36,039 bases of DNA from a virus, in IMG/VR virus record IMGVR_UViG_3300037852_000519, positions 1 to 36,039 of that record; one strand, written 5' to 3'. The notes below the pieces were generated by a model. It was not told where the DNA came from, searched no databases, and saw only the letters and a list, made by a program, of their open reading frames with translations. Of this stretch, positions 1,814 to 35,367 are shown in pieces. The translations under genes were made by a program, and so were the position numbers. Numbering within the stretch: position 1 is the stretch's first letter; each line of letters opens with the position of its first letter.

Positions 1814-3169
1814 TTAGGTAAAGAACTTCTTGGCGACATCATGGGTCCTCAACGGCTCTGGCCGATAAGGCCCGTACGTGTCGTAGTTCAGGACCTGTTT
1901 CAGACCGAGTCTGTCGTAGACGGTTTCATGCAGGGGGGCGGCGTTCGGAACGGGTCGCCGCTGCTGTTCCCATGCGAGGCGTCTGTCGCCGCCGGCGCCG
2001 ACCTTGCATTCATCATGTTGCATGCCTGCCGCGGACGGGAACAGGTTGAGATAGAAGGGGTCGACCATAACTCGTCCGTCGGGCGGAAGCTCATTGGCCA
2101 GGATGTCGACCATCCACTTGAGCGTTATGTCGGACAATCGCGCTTCGTTGTCCGGATAGCCGCCGCCGATGTCGGCATGGTTTCCGGCAAACCATATCTG
2201 CTCCAGAGGCTCGGGCTCGCCCTCGCGTCTTGGCGGCGTCCGCTCGCCCCAGGGCACGCGGGCGAAGTCTTTGCGGTATTCGTCGATTGACAGCGCGTGG
2301 CGCGCGAAGTGAACGCCTTCGCCCAGATTCTGATCGTAAAAGCCGAATTTTCGTCTGTTTCTCCTATAAAGCAGAATGGCCGCGAGGTACGCGATCCCCG
2401 CTATTGCCACGAACAGCAAGGCAAAGCAGCCGGGCGAGAATGCATGGCTGATGGAAAGAATGCCCCAGGCAATTAGCGCAACCACCGACGCTCCACCGAT
2501 GGCCATGAGCACCAACGCCCAAACGGGGAAATGCGGACGCAACCCCAGCGCCGCCACCGTATCCCATACGCCGATGAAGTAAGGAACGGCGCCGGTCTCC
2601 GGGCCGGCGAAGGACGCGTGCTTCTCGCGGAAGGTTTGCGCCAATCGCCGGCGTTCCTCGCCATAGCCCGCATGCCGCGTGACGAACCCGTGCTGGTAAA
2701 CGTTTTTGACCGCGGTGGCGGCAACCGCCTCGACCGAATCGTTGTCCAGCTTGAGCGCCGTGCCATCGTCCGCCTTGACCGGAATGCCGCACAACCCAAG
2801 GACGCCGCCGAGGCACCGGGCGGTGTACGCGCCCCGGCTGAAGCCGAACAGGTATATGTGGTCGCCGGGCGCCCACATCCGAATGATCGCCGCGTAGCAT
2901 TCAATGATGTGCTTGGTGATGCCGAGGCCCGTCATCTGGCTGAGCAAATTGTAGAGCTTGCGGACGAAGCCGATCTTGAATTGCTCGCCCGCCGACTGGG
3001 ACCCGAGCCCCGGGTGATAAAAAGCCAGTTGCTTTGACGGATCGATGCGCGACAGGGGGCCGGAGCGCGTGGCGCGGAACAGCTTGTAGACGTTGGTCAG
3101 ATCCTCATCGGCGAGGATGCCGCCGGCGTTCCCCGTGCCGTCGCAGAAAATCAAGATGTTCTTGCTCAC
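1814..3169 (-). CDS. DUF2235 alpha/beta-hydrolase, Tle1-like phospholipase candidate with two membrane segments
   Basis: The protein is 451 aa from a GTG at 3169, which follows GAGG at proper spacing. The frame could extend to 3250, but the family begins at the conserved KNILIFCDGTGN. The DUF2235 domain is complete: the nucleophile motif G-F-S-R-G-A-Y-T-A-R (Ser about 111), an acidic residue in IGVWDTVAALG (Asp about 203) and a late histidine in GNHADIGGGYPD (His about 331). Two hydrophobic segments (about 214-242 and 248-268) interrupt the hydrolase fold and could anchor it in a membrane. DUF2235 proteins include type VI secretion Tle1 phospholipase effectors and many uncharacterised hydrolases. 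No VgrG, PAAR or immunity gene is adjacent, so the effector role is inference. It lies opposite to the phage genes and probably represents cargo at the prophage edge. Confidence 0.85.
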   Translation of the reverse strand: MSKNILIFCDGTGNAGGILADEDLTNVYKLFRATRSGPLSRIDPSKQLAFYHPGLGSQSAGEQFKIGFVRKLYNLLSQMTGLGITKHIIECYAAIIRMWAPGDHIYLFGFSRGAYTARCLGGVLGLCGIPVKADDGTALKLDNDSVEAVAATAVKNVYQHGFVTRHAGYGEERRRLAQTFREKHASFAGPETGAVPYFIGVWDTVAALGLRPHFPVWALVLMAIGGASVVALIAWGILSISHAFSPGCFALLFVAIAGIAYLAAILLYRRNRRKFGFYDQNLGEGVHFARHALSIDEYRKDFARVPWGERTPPRREGEPEPLEQIWFAGNHADIGGGYPDNEARLSDITLKWMVDILANELPPDGRVMVDPFYLNLFPSAAGMQHDECKVGAGGDRRLAWEQQRRPVPNAAPLHETVYDRLGLKQVLNYDTYGPYRPEPLRTHDVAKKFFT

Positions 3170-3300
3170 GGTCGCCTCGATGTTGTGGGACCGATGTCCT
3201 ACAATTGACCGCTGTGCTTGGCAAGTTCGCCATCTGAAACTTTCCGACAAGCTACATCCAGCCCCACCCCGGCGCGCTGCACCACCACAGGAACAACCCC

Positions 3301-4531: not shown

Positions 4532-7000
4532 ATGCTCCGTTCCACGCCCCCCGGCGAAGATCCCGTTGGCGATGCCCGCGTCGCCCAGGTCGGCTTTTTC
4601 GCGGCCGGGTCGCCGCCGGGCGAGGACGGGCTTGACGACCTCTACCAGCACGCCTCGGACCTCGCGACCCCGCCGGGCAGCGCGCCGGAGCGGGTCGGGC
4701 ACGACGCGCCCGACTACCTGCACCTCATCACCATCGCCGAGCAGCAGGCGAACCTCTACGTCCAGCAGGTCAACCGCCGCGCCTGGTCGCGCTCGTACCG
4801 CGCCTTCCACAACGAGCACTTCGTCGGCTCCAAATACGGCCACCGCGACTGGTCGAACCGCTCGAAGATCTTTCGCCCCAAGACCCGCTCGGCGGTGCGC
4901 AAGGACGGCGCCGCGGTGGCGGCCTCGCTGTTCGGCACCGTCGACGCCATCACCTGCTCGGCCGGCGACGAGGCCGACGCGGGCCAGCGCGCCGCCGCCG
5001 CGCTGATGCAGGAGCTGATCAACTACCGCACCGACCGCACCTCCGGCCGCGCCGCCATCCCCTGGTTCCTCACCGCCATGGGGGCCAGGCAGGATGCGCA
5101 GATCGCGGGGATATGTGCGTCCAAGCAATACTGGCGACTCGAACTGCGCAAGTCTCATGACGAAGAACTGCCTGCCGAGATGTCAGATGTCGGAGGTCAG
5201 ATATCAGAAGAAAGGAATCCGACCTCTGACATCCGACCTCTGACATCTACCGGCCGCACCCGGCCGGTCTTCGTCCCCGACATCGACCGCCCCGACATCC
5301 GCCTCTTCCCGCCCGAGAACGTGATCATCGATCCGGCCGCCGACTGGACCAACCCGGCGCAATCCGCCGCCTATTTGCTGCTCAAATACCCGATGCGGCT
5401 CTACGAGGTCGAGAAGAAGACGCGCGACCCGCTCAATCCGTGGAAGGCGTTGCCGCCGGATTTGCTCAAAGGAACGGCCGAGGCGAGCAAGTTCGACGCC
5501 GCCGCCATTCGGCGCGCCCGCGAGTTCGGCCTCGACCGCTTCGACGAGACCCAGAACGCGGCCGAGTTCGACATCATCTGGGTCTACGAGGCGTTCATCC
5601 GCATCGACGGCGAGGACAAGTGCTTCTTCTCCCTCGGCGACAAGGCGTTCCTCACCGACCCGAAGCCGACCCGCGAGGTCTACCCTGAGCAGGCCGGCGA
5701 CCGGCCGGTGACGATCGGCTACGGCGCTTTGGAGGCGCACCGCATCTATCCCATGTCGGCGGTCGAGAGCTGGCAGCAGACTCAAGCTGAGATCAACGAC
5801 GTCGCCAACCTCTATCTCGACACCATGAAGCAGAACGTGGCGCCGGTGACCAAGGTGGTGCGCGGGCGCAGCGTCGATCTGGAAGCCCTGCACCGGCGCG
5901 GGCCCAACAGCCATATTCTCGTGACCCGCCTCGACGACATCGACTTCGCCCGGCCGGTCGACATTCCCCAGTCGGTGATCGTCGGCATGGAGAAGCTCGA
6001 TGTCGACATGGACGACTTGGCCGGCCAGTTCAACGCCGGCTCGGTGCAGACCAACCGGACGCTGAACGACACGGTCGGCGGCCTCAAGCTCATCGCCGGC
6101 GCGTCGAACGCCGTGCAGGAGTTCGACATCCGCCTGTGGATCGAGACCTGGGCGGAGCCGGCGCTCGCCCAGGTCGTGCGGCTCGAACAGTATTATGAGA
6201 GCGACGAGATCATCCTCGGCGTGTGCGGCCAGCGCGCGCAGCTGTGGCAGAAGCACGGCGTCTCGCGCATCACCGATGATCTCATGGACCATCAGGTGAC
6301 GATCCGCATCAACGCCGGCCTCGGCGTCGGCGACCCGCAGCAGCGGCTGGCCAAATTCCGCGACGCCACCGCGGTGGCGGCGCCGCTGCTCGCCCAATCG
6401 AAGGAGTTCCAGACCGGCCAGGTGTCGCTCAACATCGAGGAGGTGATGAACGAGGTGTTCGGCGCGGTCGGCTACCGCGACGGCGGCAAGCGGTTTATCA
6501 CCGTGGCGCCGCCCGATCCCGGCCAGGCGCAACAGCAGCAGATGCAGCAGGGCTTGAGCCTGCAGAACATGCTCGCTGAGATCGCCAAGAAGCGCGCGCA
6601 GGCCCAGCACGCCGCGGCCCAAGCCGGGCATGCGCAGATGCTCGGCACCGCCGCCATCGCCAAGGTCGGCCTCGAGCACCGCCGCCAGCTCCACGACGAA
6701 AGTACTTCAGCCTTCGACCACGCCCATCAGGTGCACGACCGCCTGCTCGCCGCCCACGACCAGGGCCACCGTCACGCGATGGAAATCGGGGATCGGATGA
6801 CGGATGTCAGAGGTCAGGTGCCGGAAGGAACTGATCCGACATCTGATATGCGACTGCCGACATCCGGACCGGCCCAAGGTCCCGACGTCATTCAGCACCT
6901 CATCGCGGCGCTAGCTGCTCCGCGCCAGCGCCAAGTCGAGTTCATGCGCGATCCCGCGACGGGTCGCATCGCCGGCGCGCGGGTGGTGGAAGCGGCGTAG
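4532..7000 (+). CDS. Phage portal protein, podovirus (P22-like) size class
   Basis: At 822 aa this has the size and texture of a podovirus portal: a helical N-terminal region with IAEQQANLYVQQ, a central 'ESWQQTQAEINDVANLYLDT' helix that looks like the portal stem, then 'GQFNAGSVQTNRTLNDTVGG' and a Gln/Ala/His-rich C-terminal coiled region (about 665-750). Portals form the dodecameric ring through which DNA enters and leaves the capsid. Two stretches look foreign: residues about 216-239 and 755-779 both read M-(S/T)-D-V-x-G-Q…P-T-S-D and are encoded by inverted heptamer repeats (H1, H2), yet the frame is kept. The start ATG has only a weak ribosome site (ggaaa) because repeat E1 abuts it. The stop TAG also lies against a repeat. 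Confidence 0.85.
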   Translation: MLRSTPPGEDPVGDARVAQVGFFAAGSPPGEDGLDDLYQHASDLATPPGSAPERVGHDAPDYLHLITIAEQQANLYVQQVNRRAWSRSYRAFHNEHFVGSKYGHRDWSNRSKIFRPKTRSAVRKDGAAVAASLFGTVDAITCSAGDEADAGQRAAAALMQELINYRTDRTSGRAAIPWFLTAMGARQDAQIAGICASKQYWRLELRKSHDEELPAEMSDVGGQISEERNPTSDIRPLTSTGRTRPVFVPDIDRPDIRLFPPENVIIDPAADWTNPAQSAAYLLLKYPMRLYEVEKKTRDPLNPWKALPPDLLKGTAEASKFDAAAIRRAREFGLDRFDETQNAAEFDIIWVYEAFIRIDGEDKCFFSLGDKAFLTDPKPTREVYPEQAGDRPVTIGYGALEAHRIYPMSAVESWQQTQAEINDVANLYLDTMKQNVAPVTKVVRGRSVDLEALHRRGPNSHILVTRLDDIDFARPVDIPQSVIVGMEKLDVDMDDLAGQFNAGSVQTNRTLNDTVGGLKLIAGASNAVQEFDIRLWIETWAEPALAQVVRLEQYYESDEIILGVCGQRAQLWQKHGVSRITDDLMDHQVTIRINAGLGVGDPQQRLAKFRDATAVAAPLLAQSKEFQTGQVSLNIEEVMNEVFGAVGYRDGGKRFITVAPPDPGQAQQQQMQQGLSLQNMLAEIAKKRAQAQHAAAQAGHAQMLGTAAIAKVGLEHRRQLHDESTSAFDHAHQVHDRLLAAHDQGHRHAMEIGDRMTDVRGQVPEGTDPTSDMRLPTSGPAQGPDVIQHLIAALAAPRQRQVEFMRDPATGRIAGARVVEAA
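5178..5248 (+). repeat. Heptamer inverted repeat H1, inside the portal gene
   Basis: The left arm is built of 7-bp units (tgtcaga, tgtcgga, ggtcaga, tatcaga). The right arm is the near reverse complement (tccgacc tctgaca tccgacc tctgaca tct). It is read through in frame as 24 portal residues. Confidence 0.8.
6794..6867 (+). repeat. Heptamer inverted repeat H2, inside the portal gene
   Basis: A more diverged copy: 'cggatgacggatgtcagaggtcag' pairs with 'ctgatatgcgactgccgacatccg'. It encodes portal residues about 755-779, with the same peptide pattern as H1 (MTDVRGQ…PTSDMRLPTS). Confidence 0.7.
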
Positions 7001-8724: not shown

Positions 8725-9047
8725 CCAAAAAAGCCCCCATGCCCCACTCCCATACGCTCGCGCTCGAGTACGCCCGCACTCGAATCAACGCCTTCGATCA
8801 CGGCCGAGGTTTCGCGCGTCATTGGGGCCGCAATAGGCCGCAATCCCGGCATGGATGGTGCAATTGTTTGGATGCGTGAAGCAGCCGACATTGCGGCACG
8901 CGCGCCCCATACGTGTCGCCGATGCGGCAATTGTGGCTGACTACAATTCCTCCGGCGTTTTACCGATGCGCTTAAATGCTGTTGAGCAATTGGCTGGTAG
9001 TTGCGCGATCACGCCAGGGGGCAATCGGCGTGGAAGGGGAGGGACCG

Positions 9048-9224
9048 TTGCGCGAACGGTTCTTACGTTTTTGGCGCGACACCTCGTGCGGCACGACGAT
9101 CGAGTACGGCTTCATCGTCGCCGGGATCGCGCTCGCCATTTTTCTCGCGCTCGAGGAAATCGGCGCCGACGGCCGCGCCGCCGCGCGGGAATTTTTTCAT
9201 ACGCTGAGATTCAGTGATCGGTGA
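9048..9224 (+). CDS. Flp/Fap-type (type IVb) pilin subunit
   Basis: From TTG 9048, which follows GGGAGGGACC, the product is 58 aa, the usual size of Flp pilins. It contains RFWRDTSCGTTIEYGFIVAG and then a hydrophobic stretch. The T-x-x-E-Y-G motif at the start of the hydrophobic helix, with Glu five residues after the Gly, is the signature cut by TadV-type prepilin peptidase. In-frame GTG 9030 and ATG 8976 are alternative starts. Flp pilins form Tad adhesion fibres, but no tad/cpa genes are nearby, so this is an orphan, probably host-derived. Its TGA stop lies in heptamer repeat sequence (cagtgatcggTGAtcgg). Confidence 0.7.
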   Translation: MRERFLRFWRDTSCGTTIEYGFIVAGIALAIFLALEEIGADGRAAAREFFHTLRFSDR

Positions 9225-18028: not shown

Positions 18029-18130
18029 CGTAGGGTGGGCAAAGCGGCGCGCGAGCGCCGCGTGCCCACGCGGATTGCGTGATGAACAGAACGCGTGGGC
18101 ACGCGCCTTCGGCGCTTTGCCCACCCTACG
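18029..18130 (+). repeat. Family E inverted repeat (copy E3)
   Basis: 'cgtagggtgggcaaagc' and 'gctttgcccaccctacg' are exact reverse complements, with inner 'cgtgcccacgcg'/'cgcgtgggcacg'. It occupies the whole scaffold-capsid gap; the capsid ribosome site GAAAGGA starts at its last base. Confidence 0.9.
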
Positions 18131-18145
18131 AAAGGACTATCCCCC

Positions 18146-19132
18146 ATGGCAGGCCAGCTCTGGTCTGTCTCCGCGGAAGGCGGGTTCATGTACTCGGACG
18201 AGTTGTCCGACGTGCTCCGCCAGCAGGTCCAACCGCTCACCAAATTCCGTCAGCTCTGCGACGCGAAGGACGGCAGCGAGAAGGGCCTCAACCGCGGCGA
18301 CAAGTACCACTGGAACGTCTATTCGACCGTTGCCACCCAAGGACGGCAGCTGCTCGAAACCGATCCGATCCCGGAGAGCAATTTCACCGTCAGCCAGAAG
18401 ACGCTCACGGTCAACGAGGCCGGCAACTCCATCCCCTACACCGGCAAGCTCTCGGATCTCGCCAAGCACGACGTCGTGTCGATCCTCGACAAGACGCTCA
18501 AGGACGACGCGCGCAAGTATTTCGACATCGCCGCGCAGGCACAGTTCAACGCCTGCCAGCTGCGCGCATCCACCGCCACCTCCACCACCTCGATCACGTT
18601 GGACACCAACGGCACGGCGTCGCAAACCAACAACGTCGCGCTCGGCACCGGCCACGTGAAGGCGATCGTCGACACGATGAAGGAGCGCAACATCCCGCCC
18701 TACATCGCCGACGACTACGTGGTGATCAGCCACCCGACCACCTACCGCAACTTCAAGAACCAGCTGGAGACGATCCACCAGTACACCGAGACCGGCATCG
18801 TCTTCATCTTCAATGGCGAGGTCGGCCGCTACGAAAGCTGCCGCTTCATCGAGCAGACGTTCATCCCCAAGGGCGGGGCCGCCAACGCCACCACCTGGGA
18901 CCCGTACGCCGGGACGGCGCAAGCGTGGACCAACGCGCAGTCGTCGTGGGCGTTCTTCATGGGCGGCGACACGGTCACCGAGGCGCTGTGCATCCCGGAG
19001 GAAATCCGGGCGAAGATCCCCGGCGACTTCGGCCGCTCCAAGGGCATCGCCTGGTACTACCTCGGCGGCTTCGGCCTCGTTCACGATGATGCCACCAACG
19101 GCCGCATCGTGAAGTGGGACTCGGCGGCGTGA
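18146..19132 (+). CDS. Major capsid protein, N4-gp56-like family
   Basis: ATG at 18146 follows GAAAGGACTATCCCCC. At 328 aa the product has the layout of the N4-gp56 major capsid family (HK97-type fold): an N-terminal arm (MYSDELSDVLRQQVQPLTKF), a spine helix region (LSDLAKHDVVSILDKTLKDD), then 'PYIADDYVVISHPTTYRNFK' and 'GEVGRYESCRFIEQTFIPKG', the segments by which I recognise the family. It is flanked by the scaffold gene upstream and a decoration-like gene 19 bp downstream, the usual head-gene order. No repeat has entered it, and it shows no frame damage. Confidence 0.85.
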   Translation: MAGQLWSVSAEGGFMYSDELSDVLRQQVQPLTKFRQLCDAKDGSEKGLNRGDKYHWNVYSTVATQGRQLLETDPIPESNFTVSQKTLTVNEAGNSIPYTGKLSDLAKHDVVSILDKTLKDDARKYFDIAAQAQFNACQLRASTATSTTSITLDTNGTASQTNNVALGTGHVKAIVDTMKERNIPPYIADDYVVISHPTTYRNFKNQLETIHQYTETGIVFIFNGEVGRYESCRFIEQTFIPKGGAANATTWDPYAGTAQAWTNAQSSWAFFMGGDTVTEALCIPEEIRAKIPGDFGRSKGIAWYYLGGFGLVHDDATNGRIVKWDSAA

Positions 19133-21140: not shown

Positions 21141-21170
21141 CGTTTGTTGCGGCAGCGGGCAGGAGAGAGC

Positions 21171-22079
21171 ATGACCTATTCCATGTCCTACACCTCGCTC
21201 GTCGCCGACAAGAACACCGCCGGCTCGATCGCGCGCTGGGTGAATTATTCCAAGCTCGACGCCGACCAGATCCTGCAGGAGGCGCAGAGCCTCATCTATT
21301 CCATGCTGCGCGTACGCGAGATGCGCACGCACTTTAACTTCGACATGGGCATCGGCGGCGACCGCGTCGCGCTGCCGGGCGGGTTCCTCGACCCGATCGG
21401 CAAGATCGCCATGCTCGGCACCGGCGCGAAGATCGAGCAGCGCTATCAGAACTTCATCCAGCGCCGGCGCACTTACACGGAGACGACCGGCAGCCTCGGC
21501 AGCAACCCGTTCACCACCACGGCGGGCTCGACCCTGGTCACCGTGAACCTCCCCAATCATGGTTTCGCGCAAGGCTCGACCTTCTTCACCGCCGGCGCCG
21601 CCGCCTTCAACGGGGTGACCGTCGCCGGCACCTTCGACGTGGTCGCGGTCGTCGACGCCAACGACTTCGTAATCGACATCACGCCGCTCGGGGCAACCCC
21701 GAACGCGAGCGGGACCGGGGGCGGCGCGGCTGCCACCTACGTCTGCGACAACCTGGTCCAGGGCATGCCGATGTATTGGGGCGTGTGGGACGAGACCATC
21801 TTCTTCGACGCGGCGTTCAGCCAGCAGACCAACTGCAATCTGCAATACTTCAAGGCGCTGCCGCTGCTCTCGACGGCGAACCCGTCGAACTTCCTCACCA
21901 ACCGCTACCCGCACCTGCTGCGCAAGGCCTGCACCGCGCAGGCGTGGGACTTCCTGCGCAACGACACGGAATATCAGAAGGACGTGGCGGCGCTCAGTGC
22001 GCTGGTCGAGCAGACCAACGCCGAGGCCGATTTCCTCTACCGCGGCGCCGCGTTCGACACCTACCTGCACGACGAGTAG
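21171..22079 (+). CDS. Head-tail adaptor protein (SU10-adaptor-like) with an inserted beta-domain
   Basis: ATG at 21171 follows AGGAGAGAGC. The 302-aa product has helical ends that together resemble SU10-type phage adaptors: DADQILQEAQSLIYSMLRVR, then a strand with ALPGGFLDPIGKI, and at the C-terminus NRYPHLLRKACTAQAWDFLR. Adaptors sit under the portal and connect it to the tail. Between these halves (about 112-190) is an inserted strand-rich domain, NPFTT…V.V…NHG…GS…G.F.VV.V.DAN.FVI…GGGAA, resembling the E1-FCCH-like module often found in phage proteins. The same insert occurs in the tail-hub protein at 24737. The gene is intact and flanked on both sides by C repeats. Confidence 0.7.
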   Translation: MTYSMSYTSLVADKNTAGSIARWVNYSKLDADQILQEAQSLIYSMLRVREMRTHFNFDMGIGGDRVALPGGFLDPIGKIAMLGTGAKIEQRYQNFIQRRRTYTETTGSLGSNPFTTTAGSTLVTVNLPNHGFAQGSTFFTAGAAAFNGVTVAGTFDVVAVVDANDFVIDITPLGATPNASGTGGGAAATYVCDNLVQGMPMYWGVWDETIFFDAAFSQQTNCNLQYFKALPLLSTANPSNFLTNRYPHLLRKACTAQAWDFLRNDTEYQKDVAALSALVEQTNAEADFLYRGAAFDTYLHDE

Positions 22080-22272: not shown

Positions 22273-23673
22273 ATGGCTGACACATATACCACCACCCTCG
22301 GCACCATCGTGATGTCGGTCGGGGGCGACAACAACACCTGGGGCACCAACCTCAACAACGCCGTCTTCCAGATTTTGGAGGACGCGATCGCCAACCAGCT
22401 CACGTCGGCGGTCAGCGGCGGGACGCTTGACCTGTCGACCAATCCGCCGCCCAATGGTCCCTCGGCGGCCCGCTATGCGATCCTGAAATTCACCGGCACC
22501 CTGGCGGCGAACCAGATCGTCAAGGTGCCGAACCTCACGAAAATCTGGCTCGTCAACAACACGGGCTTGACCAACGCCGGCTTCACGCTGACGTTTCAGA
22601 CGCCGTCGGGCTCGCCCTCGAACTTTGTTCCGGCCGGCGGCTGGTGCTGGGTCTTTTGCGACGGCGCCAACAACGTCTATGTGAGCCCGTTCGCCAGCAA
22701 CCTCGCGCTGATGCCGAACGGCAGCGCGGCGGCGCCAAGCTATGCGTTCTACAGTGAGGTCAGCGGCTGGTACCGCAACGGCTTAAACGACATCCGCTTG
22801 GCGATCGGCGGCGCCGACGTGCTGCAGGTGACCGGCGCGGGTGCCGGCTCCCCGTCGGTCGTCAACGTGCTCGCGCCCAACGTGCTGCAGCAGCAGGGCG
22901 CGCAGATCGTTCCCGCCGGCACCGAACTCGCCTACGCGGGCGTCAGCCTGCCGGCCGGCGGCTGGCTGTGGGAGGACGGCTCGGCCTACAATCGCGCCGC
23001 GTACGCCACTCTATTTAATGCGCTCACCGCCACGGTGACGGCGACCGTCAACGGCACCACGGCGGTGACCGCGCTCTCCGCCGACTTGCGCGGCCAGGGC
23101 CTCAACGGCGCCGTGGTCGAAGGCACGAACATCGCCAGCGGCACCACCATCACCTTCACCGCGGCGACGACCGCGACCCTGAGTCAGGCGGCGACCGGCA
23201 GCGGCAGCGTCACGTTGCGCGTCTTCCCGTGGGGCAACGGCAACGGCTCGACCACCTTCAACGTGCCCGACCGGCGCGGCCGCGCCTTGTTTGCCCGCGA
23301 CGACCTCAACGGCAGCGCCGCCAACCGCATCACGTTCAATGCCGGCACGCATCTCAATACGGCCGGCGGCGAGGAGCTGCACACCCTCGTCACCGGCGAG
23401 ATGCCGTCGCACAATCACGGTGCCACCGTCAGCGAGCCGAACGGCGGCCAGGGCCATCAGCACGGCCTGCCGTTCAACGTGACGGTGTTCGGCGGCCAGG
23501 CGCAGACCACGGTCGGCGGCGGCATCGCCAACCTGCTGCAGAACAACGGCGCCGCCGCGAATACCAGCCTCGCCGCCACCGGCATCGGCGTCTCGACCGC
23601 GGCCACCGGCGGCGGCGCGGCCCACAACAACATGCCGACCTTCGGCATCAGCAATTATATACTAAAGACGTAG
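22273..23673 (+). CDS. Tail fibre with C-terminal phage tail-collar domain
   Basis: The 466-aa product starts at ATG 22273, immediately after heptamer sequence and without a visible Shine-Dalgarno. The N-terminal half is strand- and Asn-rich with 'SVGGDNNTWGTNLNNAVFQI', an opening I associate with phage tail fibres. The C-terminal part is a tail-collar domain: 'LPAGGWLWEDGSAYNRAAYA', then FNVPDRRGRALFARDD, 'EELHTLVTGEMPSHNHGATV' and a terminal GGGAAHNNMPTFGISNYILKT-like end. A predicted Ig-like segment with TVTATVNGTTAVTALSADLR splits the collar. Collar fibres contribute to host attachment. The gene is followed by a composite repeat cluster. Confidence 0.8.
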   Translation: MADTYTTTLGTIVMSVGGDNNTWGTNLNNAVFQILEDAIANQLTSAVSGGTLDLSTNPPPNGPSAARYAILKFTGTLAANQIVKVPNLTKIWLVNNTGLTNAGFTLTFQTPSGSPSNFVPAGGWCWVFCDGANNVYVSPFASNLALMPNGSAAAPSYAFYSEVSGWYRNGLNDIRLAIGGADVLQVTGAGAGSPSVVNVLAPNVLQQQGAQIVPAGTELAYAGVSLPAGGWLWEDGSAYNRAAYATLFNALTATVTATVNGTTAVTALSADLRGQGLNGAVVEGTNIASGTTITFTAATTATLSQAATGSGSVTLRVFPWGNGNGSTTFNVPDRRGRALFARDDLNGSAANRITFNAGTHLNTAGGEELHTLVTGEMPSHNHGATVSEPNGGQGHQHGLPFNVTVFGGQAQTTVGGGIANLLQNNGAAANTSLAATGIGVSTAATGGGAAHNNMPTFGISNYILKT

Positions 23674-30664: not shown

Positions 30665-31711
30665 ATGTGCTTTGGAATGACCACGACGCAGCAGACGACG
30701 AACACGCCTTCGTCGTTCGTCCAGGGCGCCGGGCAGACCGCGTTCAACTTCGCCCAGAACCTCGCCACCCAGCCCTTCAATGCGCCGCTGCTCGGCACCG
30801 CCGGCTTCACGCCCCAGCAGCTGCAATCGTTCGCGCAGGTCGGCAACCTTGCGAGCGCGCCGAACGCCGGCAATCCGTTTTACAGCACGGTCGCCAACGA
30901 TTACGCCAATTACGGCGCGGCCCCGGCCGCGAGCATCGGCGCGCCGAGCGTTCTCGGCGCGACCGTCAATCCGGCGACGGCGACGCTCAACCAATATATC
31001 GACCCGAACCTGCGGCGCGAGCTGCAGCCGACCCTCGATGCGATCACGCGGCAGGCGGCGATCGCCAAGACCGCCCCGGGCGGGGTTGGTTCGGCGGCGA
31101 CCGCCGCCGGCGCCTTCGGCGATGCGCGCCAGGGCGTCGAGAACGCCAACGTCGACGAAGCGGCCATGCGCCAGGCGGCGCAGGCGACCGGGCAGGCCTA
31201 CCAGAACGCGTTCCAGAACGCGGCCAACCTGCGCGGCATCGACATTTCCAACCTGATCGGCACCCAGACCGCCAACGCCGGCCTCAACGAGCAGGCGCTC
31301 GGGCGCGTGCTCGGCTCCGGCAACGCGCTCACCAACCTGGCGCAATACACCACCGGCACCGGCCTCAACCTCGCCCAGGCGCTCGGCCAGGCCGGCACCC
31401 AGCAGCAGCAGCTGGCGCAGCAGCAGCTCGGCAGCCTCTACAACCAGCAGCTCCAGAACCTGCTCGGGCCGTATCAGTATCAGATACCCGCGCTCAACTC
31501 GACGCTCTCCGCGCTCGCGCCGACGCAGCCGTCGACGCAAACCGTGCAGCAGCCGAACAACGCCGGATGGCAGCTCGCCGGCGCGCTCGGCGGCGCCTTG
31601 CTGGGCGGGCTCGGCACCGGCTTCGGCCAGGGCATGGGGCTCGGGACGTTCGGCAACCTGTTCGGCAGCGGCAAGGCGGGCTGGGCTTCGCAGAGCGATT
31701 CATTACCATAG
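30665..31711 (+). CDS. Internal virion / DNA-ejection protein candidate (348 aa)
   Basis: ATG at 30665 comes directly after heptamer sequence without a clear ribosome site. The 348-residue product is Ala/Gln/Asn/Gly-rich and low in charge, mostly helical, with long Gln-rich stretches (GQAGTQQQQLAQQQLGSLYN). The C-terminus is glycine-zipper-like and hydrophobic (AGALGGALLGGLGTGFGQGM), suited to membrane insertion. This style and the position as first of three similar genes fit podovirus internal virion proteins that are injected ahead of the DNA. No named family motif is seen, so the call rests on composition and order. Confidence 0.6.
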   Translation: MCFGMTTTQQTTNTPSSFVQGAGQTAFNFAQNLATQPFNAPLLGTAGFTPQQLQSFAQVGNLASAPNAGNPFYSTVANDYANYGAAPAASIGAPSVLGATVNPATATLNQYIDPNLRRELQPTLDAITRQAAIAKTAPGGVGSAATAAGAFGDARQGVENANVDEAAMRQAAQATGQAYQNAFQNAANLRGIDISNLIGTQTANAGLNEQALGRVLGSGNALTNLAQYTTGTGLNLAQALGQAGTQQQQLAQQQLGSLYNQQLQNLLGPYQYQIPALNSTLSALAPTQPSTQTVQQPNNAGWQLAGALGGALLGGLGTGFGQGMGLGTFGNLFGSGKAGWASQSDSLP

Positions 31712-31721
31712 GACGCCTGAC

Positions 31722-32609
31722 ATGGACTCCGCCTTCGGTACCGACGTGCTCGGCCTGGATTCTCTGCCGCCGTCGCCGCTCTATCCGATCGGACAGTTGC
31801 CGCCGTCGGCAGCGGCCGCGCCGGGCGGCGCCGATTCCCCATCAAGTCCGCGCCTGAGCGTGCCGCTCGCACCGCCGGCATCGGCGCTGCCTGCGTCCGC
31901 AATCGATCTCGCCCAGCAGCTTGGGACGAGCGCGCCGTCGCCGGTGACGCCCGGCCCGGGCGGCCTCGATCTCGGCCCGCTCATCCGTAGCGCCTTCACG
32001 CCGCAAGGCGGCGTGTTTGGAGCGAACACCGGACAGTTCATGTCGGCGCTCGGTGGCGGGCTCTCCTCGGCGGGACAGAATTGGAACAAGCCGGCGATGG
32101 CCGCCTTCGCGAGTGGCGCCGGCGCGGCGCTCCAGGGCGGCCAGCAGTGGCAGGCCCAACAGCAGGAGGCGAAACTCAAGGCGCTCAACGCCGCCATCGC
32201 CGCCTGGAAGACCGGCGACATGACGAGCTATCATCAAGCGCTGGCGCATTATCACGCCGCGGTGGCGCAGCAACGTTTGGCGAACTTGACGGGGCCACGC
32301 CCCGACACCCGGGTTGCCCCGCCCGCGGGCCTCGCCGCGGCAAACGCCGCAGCGTCCGCGCCCGCTCCGCAATCCCCCGGACAGGACAGCACGCCCGGGC
32401 AAGGCGCCGGCGGCGGTTCGTTTGCTCCGCCGGCGATCGTCTACGGAAGTGCACCCGCTGCCGGTTCCACCGCGCCGGCCGTGCGCCAGACCGCCGCCAC
32501 GCCGGCCGATCCGCTCGCGCAGGCGCGCGACGCCGTTGCCCGCGGCGCCCCGCGCGACGCGGTGATCGAGCGGCTGCGCGTCAACGGCATCGATCCCGCC
32601 GGTCTGTGA
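31722..32609 (+). CDS. Second putative internal virion protein (295 aa)
   Basis: ATG at 31722, 10 bp after the previous stop, starts a 295-residue Ala/Pro/Ser/Gln-rich protein. A Pro/Ala-rich first third leads to a helical middle (SALGGGLSSAGQNWNKPAMA, then QQWQAQQQEAKLKALNAAIA) and a further Pro/Ala linker; the end, DAVIERLRVNGIDPAGL, looks like a small helical tail. Spacing to both neighbours (10 and 6 bp) indicates one operon of three. The role as an injected protein is inferred from that context. Confidence 0.6.
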   Translation: MDSAFGTDVLGLDSLPPSPLYPIGQLPPSAAAAPGGADSPSSPRLSVPLAPPASALPASAIDLAQQLGTSAPSPVTPGPGGLDLGPLIRSAFTPQGGVFGANTGQFMSALGGGLSSAGQNWNKPAMAAFASGAGAALQGGQQWQAQQQEAKLKALNAAIAAWKTGDMTSYHQALAHYHAAVAQQRLANLTGPRPDTRVAPPAGLAAANAAASAPAPQSPGQDSTPGQGAGGGSFAPPAIVYGSAPAAGSTAPAVRQTAATPADPLAQARDAVARGAPRDAVIERLRVNGIDPAGL

Positions 32610-32615
32610 CGTCCC

Positions 32616-33863
32616 ATGTTCGACGATCTGATTCCATCGGCGTCGGCAGCCCCGGCGCCGGCGCCCGGTATGTTCGACGATCTCATTCCGGCAGGTGGAG
32701 CAGCCGGGGCGGCCGCCGGCGGCATGTTCGACGATCTGATTCCGGCGTCCGCTCCTTCTTCCGCTGTTGCGTTTGGTGCAAACAGCGGCGCCTCGCCACC
32801 GAGCGACGCTGGACCGAATCCGCAGACCGGCGCGGCCGGCGTCGTCCCCAGCATCCCCCGAGTCGTCGGCGAAGCGTTCGGAGCCGGCCCTGCCTTGGAT
32901 TTGCTCGACCCCGGCGTTCTTGAGCGCGGCTGGCAAGGCGCGAAGCAGGGATTTGGATCGCAGCCGCTCGGATTCTCGGACGAGAACCGGCGCAATTATC
33001 CCGTGGCCCGTTTTGCGCAGCCGTTCGTCGCGCCGATCGACGCGGCGCTGCGGCTGCCCGGCGCAATTGTCGGAGGAGGGGCGGGGCTGGGCGCCGGCAT
33101 GTATCGGGCGCATGGCGGCGGCCAAGCCGAATCCGACCGTCTCGAGCGGGATCTGAACATCCTCGGCCAGGGCGCGCTGATCGAATCGGGGATGCGACCG
33201 GCGCATACCCGTACCGTCCTCGACAATCTCGGTCGCCGCGATGGCGATGTCGGCAATTTGCCGGCGGATACGGTCAAGCAGCCCGTTGAGTCTAACGGTG
33301 ACGGTCCGCCGCCGATCTCGCTCTCGGCCGCCTCACCTGATTTCCGCGCCGGAGTGCTGCGGATCGCCGGTAAGGCATTGGAGGCCGCGCGTGGGTCGTT
33401 GCGCGACATGTTCGAGGGCGTACGTCTTGAGCCGCCGAAGCAGAACAGCGTCATCGACCTCGGTTTCGTCACGCCCGAAGGCGCGGCGCACCTTAACACG
33501 CTGTTTCGCGGGGCAGGCGTCGACCTCGACGTGAGCGGGTTCCGCCACACGGTCGATACCTATGCGGCGCAACATTCGTTCACGCGGCACGGAAGCGCCG
33601 CGAGCGAGGTGCCGCGTGGCCAAATCCCGCTCACTGCCGACGACTGGGCATCGATCCCCGATGTGCTCGCGACCCCCGATCTTGTGCGTTATCTCGGGCG
33701 TACAAGCGTCGGGCGGGAGAGCATCGGCTATTGGAAACGCGTCGACGGACACATTCTTTATGTCGAAGAAGTGCGAACCGGGCGCAGGACGCTCGCCGCA
33801 GTGTCGATGCGCAAATATCGCGCCGGCGACGCAGAGGTGCCGGGACGACCTCATGGCCCTTGA
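32616..33863 (+). CDS. Virion ejection protein with C-terminal BECR/MuF-C-like nuclease domain
   Basis: ATG at 32616 lies 6 bp after the previous stop. The N-terminus is a perfect-period tandem: MFDDLIP at residues 1, 19 and 37, each followed by an Ala/Gly/Pro spacer of 11 residues. The middle (about 80-180) has a Gly/Ala hydrophobic stretch (ALRLPGAIVGGGAGLGAGMY) suited to membrane contact. From about residue 277 a compact domain follows: SFTRHGSAASEVPRGQIPLT, DDWASIPDVLATPDLVRYLG, then ESIGYWKRVDGHILYVEEVR and TLAAVSMRKY. H-G…E…RGQ.PLT..DW..IPD, followed by a strand with EEVR and a final RKY, is the pattern I associate with phage BECR-fold nuclease domains (PBECR/MuF-C) seen in polyvalent and MuF proteins. 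RNase activity is inferred. Degenerate copies of its 3' end follow downstream. Confidence 0.7.
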   Translation: MFDDLIPSASAAPAPAPGMFDDLIPAGGAAGAAAGGMFDDLIPASAPSSAVAFGANSGASPPSDAGPNPQTGAAGVVPSIPRVVGEAFGAGPALDLLDPGVLERGWQGAKQGFGSQPLGFSDENRRNYPVARFAQPFVAPIDAALRLPGAIVGGGAGLGAGMYRAHGGGQAESDRLERDLNILGQGALIESGMRPAHTRTVLDNLGRRDGDVGNLPADTVKQPVESNGDGPPPISLSAASPDFRAGVLRIAGKALEAARGSLRDMFEGVRLEPPKQNSVIDLGFVTPEGAAHLNTLFRGAGVDLDVSGFRHTVDTYAAQHSFTRHGSAASEVPRGQIPLTADDWASIPDVLATPDLVRYLGRTSVGRESIGYWKRVDGHILYVEEVRTGRRTLAAVSMRKYRAGDAEVPGRPHGP

Positions 33864-34052
33864 GCCCCGCGTCAAACGTCCAAAACGCTTCCCGGCGGAT
33901 CAAACCTAAGCCGGCTTCCGGCTGACGGCAACCCGTCAGCGAACACCACAGCCGTTACTCGAGGCCAATCTAGACCACCAAAAATCGTCCCGCGATCACC
34001 GCGCGATCTTCCCGGGCTGCACGGGGGCACCACGGTCCTGGGAGAGCTCATC

Positions 34053-34233
34053 GACGGCGTTCTTTATGTCGAAGAAGTGCAACGGGGCGGGGACGCTCGC
34101 AGCGGAATCCGTGCGCAAGTATCGTCTGGGAAGGAGAGGTGCCGGGACGACCACATGGCCTGAGGCCCCGCGTCGTACGTTCGAAACGCTCCCCGACGCG
34201 TTGAACGTAAGCTCGCTTCCGGCCGGCGTCAAC
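34053..34233 (+). pseudogene. Degenerate copy 1 of the nuclease-domain 3' end
   Basis: 'ggcgttctttatgtcgaaga' restarts the nuclease sequence (GVLYVEEVQ). A frameshift follows; the next frame reads GTLAAESVRKYRLGRRGAG, matching RTLAAVSMRKYR of the intact gene. It ends with the same noncoding tail (gcttccggccggcgtcaac) found after the intact copy. Confidence 0.75.
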
Positions 34234-34244
34234 TCGTTGCTTGG

Positions 34245-34470
34245 TATTGGAAGCGTATCAACGGGCGCATTGTTTATATCGAAGCGGTGCGAACTGGGCG
34301 CAAGACTCTCGCCGCGGTGTCCATGCGCAAATATCAGACGGGGAGGGAAGAGGTGCCGGGACGACCACATGGCCCTGAGGCCCCGCAGTCATAACGACGC
34401 ACTTCCCGGCGACTCGAATGTAAGCCCAATTTCGCTTGGTGGCAACGCTGAGCTGAATCCACAGCCGTTG
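34245..34470 (+). pseudogene. Degenerate copy 2 of the nuclease-domain 3' end, in-frame remnant
   Basis: The frame from 34245 to TAA 34392-34394 reads YWKRINGRIVYIEAVRTGRK and then TLAAVSMRKYQTGREEVPGR, so the last 49 codons of a variant nuclease domain are intact but lack any start or upstream domain. The tail continues to about 34470. Confidence 0.8.
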
Positions 34471-34509
34471 ATCAAGCAATCCGGAGCGGTATGAGAGGCG
34501 CTGCCGGAA

Positions 34510-34556
34510 AATCTGGAGTGCCGGGAGGACCGGATGGGCCTGCGCCCCCCCGGTCA
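34510..34556 (+). pseudogene. Possible further fragment of the same cassette
   Basis: 'gagtgccgggaggaccggat' and 'gggcctgcgcccc' resemble 'gaggtgccgggacgaccaca' and 'tggccctgaggcccc' of the other copies, with more substitutions. Weak on its own. Confidence 0.4.
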
Positions 34557-34620: not shown

Positions 34621-34779
34621 GGCTCCGCTCACCGCGGAGTCCGTGCGCAAGTATCGTCTGGGAAAGATTAGGTGCCGGGACGACCGCATGGCCCTTAGGC
34701 CCCGCAGTCCCACGTCCGAAACGCACTTCCCGGCGGATCAAATTTAAGCCTGCCTCAAGCTGACGGCAACCTATCAGCG
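34621..34779 (+). pseudogene. Degenerate copy 3 of the nuclease-domain 3' end
   Basis: 'accgcggagtccgtgcgcaa' and 'gtatcgtctgggaaag' match copy 1 (TAESVRKYRLGK). The tail 'ggatcaaatttaagcctgcc', then 'agctgacggcaacc', matches the region after the intact gene (33898-33934). The stretch 33864-34857 holds these copies and no complete gene. Confidence 0.75.
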
Positions 34780-34819: not shown

Positions 34820-34841
34820 GGGCCGCGTTGCGGCCCTTTTT
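34820..34841 (+). terminator. Rho-independent terminator
   Basis: Stem gggccgc/gcggccc with a gtt loop, followed by five T. It would end transcription of the ejection-protein operon and the cassette remnants. It lies just in front of the HNH gene. Confidence 0.75.
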
Positions 34842-34857
34842 CATTTGCGAGAGCGCC

Positions 34858-35367
34858 GTGCAAAGCAGGCCGCGCCTGACCTACGAGCGGCTGCGCGAGA
34901 TTTTGCACTACGACCCGAAGACCGGGATATTTCGCTGGCGCCAGCGCGTGAGCTACGCCATCCAGGTCGGCGACGTGGCCGGCTCGGTGAACAAGACCAG
35001 CGGCTACCGGCTCATCCATATCGACGGCCGCAATTACAAGGCCCACCGGCTCGCCTGGCTTTATGTGACCGGCACATGGTGCCGGCCGATGGTCGACCAT
35101 CGCGACCGCAACCGGGCGAACAACCGCTGGAGCAACCTGCGCCGCGCCACCGCGTCGACCAACGCCGCCAACCGCGGACGTCCGCGCACCAACGCCTCCG
35201 GATTCAAGGGCGTGCACCGGCGCCGCGACACCGGCCAATGGCGCGCGCAGATCTGGAAGGACGGACGCGCCCGTTACCTCGGCCAGTTCGCGACCCCGCA
35301 GGCCGCTCACGACGCCTACGTCCGCGCCGCGCGGGAGCTGTTCGGCGAGTTTGCCGGGGAAGGATAG
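34858..35367 (+). CDS. HNH homing-type endonuclease with AP2 domain (169 aa)
   Basis: A GTG at 34858 is the most sensible start (the frame also opens at TTG 34828, inside the terminator). The HNH_3-type core is 'NYKAHRLAWLYVTGTWCRPM' and VDHRDRNRANNRWSNLR, with His about 63, the Asp-His pair about 80-81 and Asn about 93. An AP2-type DNA-binding domain follows (about 114-158): SGFKGVHRRRDTGQWRAQIW, then RYLGQFATPQAAHDAYVRAA. HNH-AP2 proteins are free-standing selfish endonucleases common in phages, cutting DNA and promoting their own spread. It stands alone between two hairpins, so it probably has its own transcription. Confidence 0.9.
   Translation: MQSRPRLTYERLREILHYDPKTGIFRWRQRVSYAIQVGDVAGSVNKTSGYRLIHIDGRNYKAHRLAWLYVTGTWCRPMVDHRDRNRANNRWSNLRRATASTNAANRGRPRTNASGFKGVHRRRDTGQWRAQIWKDGRARYLGQFATPQAAHDAYVRAARELFGEFAGEG

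Follow-up and report, generated by a model that had tools for sequence, protein, structure and literature searches.

PBECR domains in virion-linked proteins are already known from the phage polyvalent proteins described by Iyer et al. 2017 (PMC5512222). In MuF polymorphic toxins (Jamet et al. 2017, PMC5576092), a phage-borne constant N-terminus is combined with an exchangeable C-terminal toxin, often a nuclease; small downstream open reading frames (ORFs) are taken as immunity genes, and delivery by the particle is proposed. The Bxa family of Bacteroides, as described in PMC11699363, is prophage-encoded and joins an N-terminal domain to diverse toxins with cognate immunity proteins. Here we analyzed the linear IMG/VR virus record IMGVR_UViG_3300037852_000519, all 36,039 bases of which are hereafter called the window, and in particular its gene 3, the third gene of an ejection-type operon. 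Gene 3 is carried by a short-tailed phage-like element with an SU10-like particle, from soil bacteria. It resembles the PBECR polyvalent proteins in the profile and key residues of its C-terminal domain and in its late-gene phage context.

Comparison with related loci (designated by L numbers) indicates that the third position of the operon, slot 3, behaves like a polymorphic-toxin locus, in which a constant N-terminus is followed by PBECR3, PBECR1 or LHH. The gene 3 product is probably a cargo of the SU10-like particle, loaded by means of a short tag, encoded in a polymorphic slot and cleaving RNA in the recipient through its PBECR3 domain. The operon and gene 3 have the following features.

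30665..31711, + strand: gene 1 of the operon, ejection-type, encoding 348 aa; it weakly resembles phrog_4287 'DNA ejection protein' (E 0.0054)
31722..32609, + strand: ejection-type gene 2, 295 aa, with a conserved NWNKPA.AAFA..AGAA motif
32616..33863, + strand: gene 3, third of the ejection-type operon, 415 aa, with a tandem tag, a low-complexity linker, a helical middle and a C-terminal PBECR3 domain
32616..32693, + strand: residues 1-26 of gene 3, with the first two MFDDLIP motifs (32616-32636 and 32670-32690)
32724..32744, + strand: third MFDDLIP motif, residues 37-43
33444..33860, + strand: modelled nuclease-like PBECR3 domain, residues 277-415, of which Pfam matches 303-403
33573, 33588 and 33804, + strand: codons of the key residues His320, His325 and Ser397
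34828..35367, + strand: HNH endonuclease gene at the end of the slot, kept in L005, L006, L008 and L023

The gene 3 ORF runs from ATG to TGA and starts 6 nucleotides (nt) past the end of gene 2. A preliminary description of this DNA had presented it as the third gene of an ejection operon with an MFDDLIP tandem at its N-terminus. The ORF is indeed present at these coordinates, and the motif occurs three times, starting at residues 1, 19 and 37. The membrane-contact segment proposed in the same description was not supported, since the top 19-residue hydropathy window (residues 137-155) scores just 1.17. Searched at full length, gene 3 had no close homologue in the viral and genome collections; relatives were found through neighbouring genes instead. 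With the middle segment as a query no phage record was found; together with the tag, this segment aligned weakly to L148 (E 2e-7). NCBIfam gave no match for 8 of 8 proteins.

The C-terminal domain had been described as a nuclease of the PBECR/MuF-C type. Profile search agreed with the first of these names: residues 303-403 match Pfam PBECR3 (PF18812) with 64.6 bits, compared to a cut-off of 30 (E 9.9e-18), and the signature RHG...E..RGQ.PLT..DW...EEVR...RKY is the conserved core of the PBECR3 family. The MuF-C name had to be dropped, the family being PBECR3 with no MuF domain detected by Pfam. Membership in the MuF polymorphic toxins was rejected, as a whole-protein Pfam scan yields PBECR3 alone. 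Membership in the polyvalent proteins was rejected as well: these combine two or more domains of disparate activity, and at E values up to 10 Pfam finds a single domain in gene 3.

An alignment-based scan of viral sequences for PBECR3 revealed 71 related loci, 34 of which were read, and 33 were aligned with the window. All 34 aligned rows have His320 and His325, and all 31 that reach position 397 have a C-terminal Ser or Thr there (Ser in the window). Gly335, Thr340 and Asp343 are likewise invariant, but were imposed or favoured by the search pattern. Thus, catalytic-type His and Ser/Thr positions are kept in homologues. The active site published for PBECR domains consists of a helix His and a C-terminal Ser/Thr (PMC5512222). 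An inactive PBECR domain has been proposed for Mu gp30 in the same paper, and the gene 3 domain could likewise be catalytically dead, serving the particle as a structural or RNA-binding component comparable to MuF of phage Mu. Both His and the Ser/Thr are, however, fully kept in the sampled family and in the window, and we consider a dead domain very improbable.

The AlphaFold model of the domain is confident (mean predicted local distance difference test 91.1, predicted template-modelling score 0.84) and consists of N-terminal helices followed by four strands. The top Foldseek match was the toxin of a Salmonella toxin-antitoxin complex (E 0.013). In VIA-align, the best match was the 7vd7 toxin (Z 7.3, 3.5 A over 88 residues), with BrnT at Z 7.1 (2.7 A over 74 residues) and RelE at Z 5.6 to 4.8. 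The first 17 rows (Z 7.3-4.5) are mainly toxin-antitoxin entries; the others are two contact-dependent inhibition (CDI) entries, one sequence-specific ribonuclease and one hypothetical Helicobacter protein. The best solved-structure neighbours are RelE/BrnT/YoeB-type toxins, in line with the proposed BECR fold, which comprises an N-terminal helix and four or five strands. With every Z under 8, the structural comparison supports the fold without deciding it. The assignment of the domain as a PBECR3 member with a RelE/BrnT-like arrangement in the predicted structure is supported. The domain is rare in the order of L023, being found in 4 of 397 genomes at E 0.001, with 2 above the cut-off.

The nearest relative, L005, has a gene 1 that is 84% identical (tblastn) and is collinear with the window. 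Nucleotide homology of 79% spans genes 1 and 2 and ends at window position 32692, codon 26 of gene 3. It restarts at position 33689, within the 3′ end of gene 3, with 84% identity over 484 bases. The sequence in between is unrelated in the two elements:

32693..33688, + strand: variable cassette, without a similar sequence in L005; the flanks on either side are 79% and 84% identical in nucleotides

The L005 counterpart of the cassette is about 1.87 kb long and codes for a PBECR1 protein of 545 aa (PBECR1 at residues 250-334, E 9.5e-7). At the protein level, the part common to the two slot-3 products is limited to residues 1-26 (85%). Because the resumed homology lies downstream of the PBECR1 gene, the PBECR3 end in L005 is headless. 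It was found by the PBECR3 profile alone (positions 69-109, E 1e-6), under the family cut-off.

In CDI and Rhs loci, replaced toxin ends remain downstream as orphan C-terminal modules. Between the stop codon of gene 3 and the HNH gene at 34828, the window contains three to four further displaced PBECR3-type ends, and the intervals 34051-34237, 34245-34426 and 34626-34778 are 78-79% identical to the 3′ end of gene 3.

34051..34237, + strand: tail copy 2, ESVRKYR allele with a broken frame, 78% identical to the 3′ end of gene 3; orthologue of the second tail of L005
34239..34446, + strand: tail copy 3, 51 open codons from 34239 (YWKRINGRIVYIEAVRTGRKTLAAVSMRKYQ...)
34506..34555, + strand: tail copy 4, weak 50-nt remnant
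34626..34778, + strand: tail copy 5, ESVRKYR allele

Within the record, tail sequence occurs at this locus only. The open frame of copy 3 is the end of a different PBECR3 allele. Copies 2 and 5 form a second allele group, present also in L005, and both groups have counterparts there. The absence of a recognisable immunity gene next to gene 3, noted earlier, is confirmed: the stretch up to the HNH gene holds degenerate copies of the 3′ end of gene 3. The simplest reading of these alignments is that the tails arose by repeated cassette replacement, with the old 3′ end left in place each time. Alternatively, the copies could be plain tandem duplications or an intergenic repeat, and the difference from L005 a single insertion of an unrelated gene. 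Copies 2, 4 and 5 are short and frame-broken, and the PBECR3 head is absent from every copy, as such an origin would allow. It accounts poorly for copy 3, in which a different PBECR3 allele stays open for 51 codons, for two allele groups each with an L005 counterpart, and for an L005 tail that stands behind a different toxin-type gene; we regard it as improbable.

In other relatives, slot 3 contains toxin modules of other types. L023 lies in a contig of a Hyphomicrobiales metagenome-assembled genome, with gene 1 72% identical to that of the window. Its slot-3 protein shares the tagged N-terminus with gene 3 (residues 1-43 of the window protein and 1-57 of L023), has three F[DE]DLIP motifs and, further on, an LHH nuclease domain (residues 436-501, E 1.4e-10). 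The next ORF, 3 bases on, carries another LHH-like piece (34% over 64 aa, E 2.5e-9) and a SUKH-1 match (E 3.4e-5) slightly under the cut-off (24.9 compared to 25.4 bits).

In L024 (gene 1 45% identical), a tandem NPFDxFD motif is combined with a C-terminal module that has no Pfam name. The same module forms the C-terminus of a protein of Streptomyces sp. NBC_01483 (48% over 114 aa), judged by eye from its repeats to be of the Rhs type, and in S. dangxiongensis it adjoins an annotated RHS protein and an SMI1/KNR4 protein. In Photobacterium a module of the L024 type stands immediately before a homologue (41%) of the gene found immediately behind the L024 module; in Caballeronia a 20-residue toxin remnant precedes an immunity homologue. 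L024 itself has a second copy (62%) of its downstream immunity-type gene and, nearby, a SUKH-1 gene (E 1.2e-12). Neither the L024 toxin nor its immunity protein gave a useful match among PDB sequences. The toxin and immunity pairs of L023 and L024 thus show that in relatives slot 3 does take up polymorphic toxin-immunity cassettes.

In more distant relatives slot 3 is occupied by proteins of polyvalent size, about 2100-2950 aa; Pfam scans of two of them, those of L009 and L035, gave InPase in both and LPD1 with FtsK-gamma in L035. In L006 and L008 no gene 3 was seen between gene 2 and the HNH gene. The ejection gene is uncommon, being found in 3 of 296 genomes of the family of L023 and in 1 of 2 genomes of the genus.

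Two short elements recur in these slot-3 proteins. A segment of about 80-90 residues, with no family name, is common to L005 (466-545) and L023 (203-291; 62%), is weakly present in the L024 slot-3 protein and was seen by eye in gene 2 of L006. An NG[VA]PSGAVS motif ahead of the toxin domain (L023 residues 397-410, L024 412-425; 71% of 14 residues, E 0.07) is perhaps a toxin junction.

Next to the exchanged cassettes stands the tandem tag, whose two MFDDLIP motifs make up essentially all of the constant region. A DNA pattern of two F(D/E)DLIP motifs 22-52 nt apart was searched without regard to position in the gene; F, D, L, I and P are thus imposed. It was found in 33 stretches of viral contigs and, among 391 genomes of the family of L023, at 8 sites in 6 genomes (reversed control, 0 in each genome). 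After removal of 3 whose first 100 residues repeat another, the 41 stretches gave 38 distinct ORFs, and in 30 of them the tandem starts within residues 1-9. The remaining 8 include L171, with a tandem close to the C-terminus, and L150 and L179, where one motif stands alone around residue 5 and the tandem follows deeper in the protein. A tentative assignment of L150 to Ntox44 was not borne out. Within the first 60 residues, 48 of 66 motifs have Gly at position −2 and 34 of 66 have Met or Leu at −1, neither of which is imposed by the pattern.

Compared beyond their first 40 residues, the 37 tagged proteins of more than 120 aa group into 12 unrelated clusters. Pfam was run on 33 tagged proteins, namely those of the window and of L023 (complete) and 31 from the set of 38, and detected ddrB-ParB in 4, RadC and LPD1 in 3 each, ART, InPase, LPD5 and PBECR1 in 2 each, and others. 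PHROGs assigned two tagged proteins as DarB-like antirestriction and one as a DNA ejection protein. In the isolated Rhizobium phage RHph_Y1_10, FDDLVP and FDDLIP start the second of two adjacent 'putative injection proteins', a pair that comes after an S74 structural protein; the tagged protein is QIG68274.1. RHEph18 has an FDDLIP, FDDLIA pair on the second gene past its S74 structural protein, annotated as hypothetical. The E-values of both matches are weak because of the short query (0.4 and 5), and the motifs are visible in the translations. From the operon position and from the presence of the tag on an annotated injection protein, we infer that the gene 3 product is a virion ejection protein.

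Among 76 tag copies, 50 distinct 15-nt versions were observed, and the two tags of a gene differ in 35 of 38 pairs, by a mean of 2.8 of 15 nt. Since the codons vary between copies, the peptide is what is kept. The tandem could instead be a DNA recombination site used for swapping modules, and the homology between the window and L005 does end inside the tandem region. Such a site is hard to reconcile with a peptide kept through differing codons and with a tag found mostly at the extreme N-terminus of unrelated proteins, and we judge this explanation improbable. The tandem (G)[ML]FDDLIP may rather be a short general loading signal for short-tailed particles. The slot of this lineage would then be a non-MuF polymorphic-toxin launcher in which a 26-residue peptide replaces the delivery domain, a proposal that we put forward tentatively, as possible rather than probable. 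With equal reserve, the cargo under this proposal could comprise antirestriction polyvalent proteins, ejection proteins and toxins. The word FDDLIP was not found in the literature searched; the motif could be described there in another form.

Other tandem N-terminal motifs (DFSEYGTP, PPSAYGDLV, WWQSLP) were seen in the polyvalent-size slot-3 proteins of L011, L014, L026, L027, L030, L031 and L035 and are perhaps equivalents of the FDDLIP tag. A PBECR3 protein near that of the window (53%, tblastn), L058 4717-6447, opens with a tandem FDFSxIPD, MFDDLIP-like in style. When tandem N-terminal motifs in general were scored in 18 slot-3 or PBECR3 proteins, 12 beat all 60 shuffles and 6 did not, and an internal window scored equally high in 7 of the 18. 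General tandem motifs are, therefore, a lead only.

SU10 heads contain ejection proteins (PMC9509320). We propose that gene 3 would be expressed late and that the tandem MFDDLIP tag would recruit its product to the particle together with the two upstream ejection-type proteins. On infection the product would enter the recipient cell, where the PBECR3 domain, with its predicted fold and active-site residues, would cut RNA by means of the His/Ser site. The comparison shows that the slot is polymorphic: between the tag and the 3′ end of the gene, whole cassettes give way to others (PBECR1, LHH or an Rhs-type toxin), and toxin tails without a head, as well as immunity genes, are left downstream.

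Several observations weigh against this interpretation. Neither the window nor L005 has a recognisable immunity gene, which an inter-bacterial toxin would normally need; slot-3 immunity pairs occur in L023 (72%) and L024 (45%), not in the window. The displaced-tail comparison comes from a single relative contig, L005. The best Foldseek E is just 0.013 and every VIA-align Z is below 8, and a search of PDB sequences with the PBECR3 profile gave no convincing relative (de novo TIM barrels and other unconvincing rows). Among 10 upstream neighbours of tagged genes, 6 had no PHROGs match at E 0.001 and 1 had a named function.

Because an immunity gene is absent there, the PBECR3 protein of the window could be either a competition toxin or an infection effector that cuts host RNA or host-defence RNA early after injection. 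L005, which also lacks an immunity gene, and the polyvalent proteins in slot 3 of distant relatives, with InPase (L009, L035) and LPD1 (L035), fit the effector role, and mRNA or CRISPR RNA has been suggested as a target of PBECR domains in polyvalent proteins (PMC5512222). The same slot in relatives, however, holds toxin modules of the LHH and Rhs types, accompanied by immunity genes that are SUKH-like or dedicated, and displaced tails are typical of toxin loci. As a replacement for the competition toxin in general, the effector is rather unlikely. In lineages with immunity genes, the cargo is most likely a toxin against cells without the element. The cargo of the window may equally serve host take-over early in infection.

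The particle genes of the window are as follows.

4532-7000: SU10-like portal (PF23899, E 4e-24)
18095-19132: major capsid gene
21144-22079: SU10-type adaptor
22273-23673: tail collar gene

The relative L016 has a terminase-like gene at 577-2355, upstream of the portal (best E 8e-13 against annotated terminases). For portal and capsid, the ratio of nonsynonymous to synonymous substitution rates is 0.14-0.22, indicative of purifying selection, and thus the particle genes are maintained. A megablast search with the last 23 kb of the window matched no phage record. The late genes are interspersed with host-like genes and repeats; gene order is nevertheless the same as in relatives. No PF00589 integrase was found in 8 close records, each possibly a fragment. 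A domesticated particle resembling a gene transfer agent is possible for the window element.

Two further genes lie in the phage region. A Tle1-like phospholipase gene of a type VI effector family (1814-3250, − strand; PF09994, E 2.1e-64) has no counterpart in L016 or L018. A Flp/Fap pilin-like ORF (8976-9224; PF04964, E 6.8e-8) is located between the portal and the later structural genes.

Unlike the polyvalent proteins described by Iyer et al., the window protein has one recognised domain, cassettes are swapped behind a 26-residue tag with tails left behind, and some relatives have immunity genes, whereas the term 'immunity protein' occurs zero times in the main text of that paper (PMC5512222). 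The distant relatives with full polyvalent proteins in slot 3 are closer to that system. The MuF toxins share with this locus the constant N-terminus and the exchangeable toxin end, and differ in that here there is no MuF domain, the carrier is the ejection-type third gene of SU10-like elements, and a short tandem motif and displaced tails are present. The Bxa family is set apart by domains, host and phage, as far as its description in PMC11699363 goes. CDI and Rhs polymorphic toxins are similar in the replaced ends downstream, and the L024 module is common to an Rhs-type protein. The carrier here is a phage ejection-type protein and not a contact-dependent or Rhs shell. As far as the literature searched goes, two features are new: a toxin locus in an ejection slot that is not of the MuF type and has displaced tails, and a tandem tag as a candidate loading signal.

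If our interpretation is true, an ejection-type carrier joins MuF fusions and the Bacteroides Bxa family among phage-delivered polymorphic toxins, and a minimal peptide is possibly sufficient for particle loading. How short-tailed phages select the cargo that they eject is not well understood; with a seven-residue motif present twice, this question becomes testable. The locus further suggests that one and the same slot is used in two ways, for polyvalent proteins and for polymorphic toxins.
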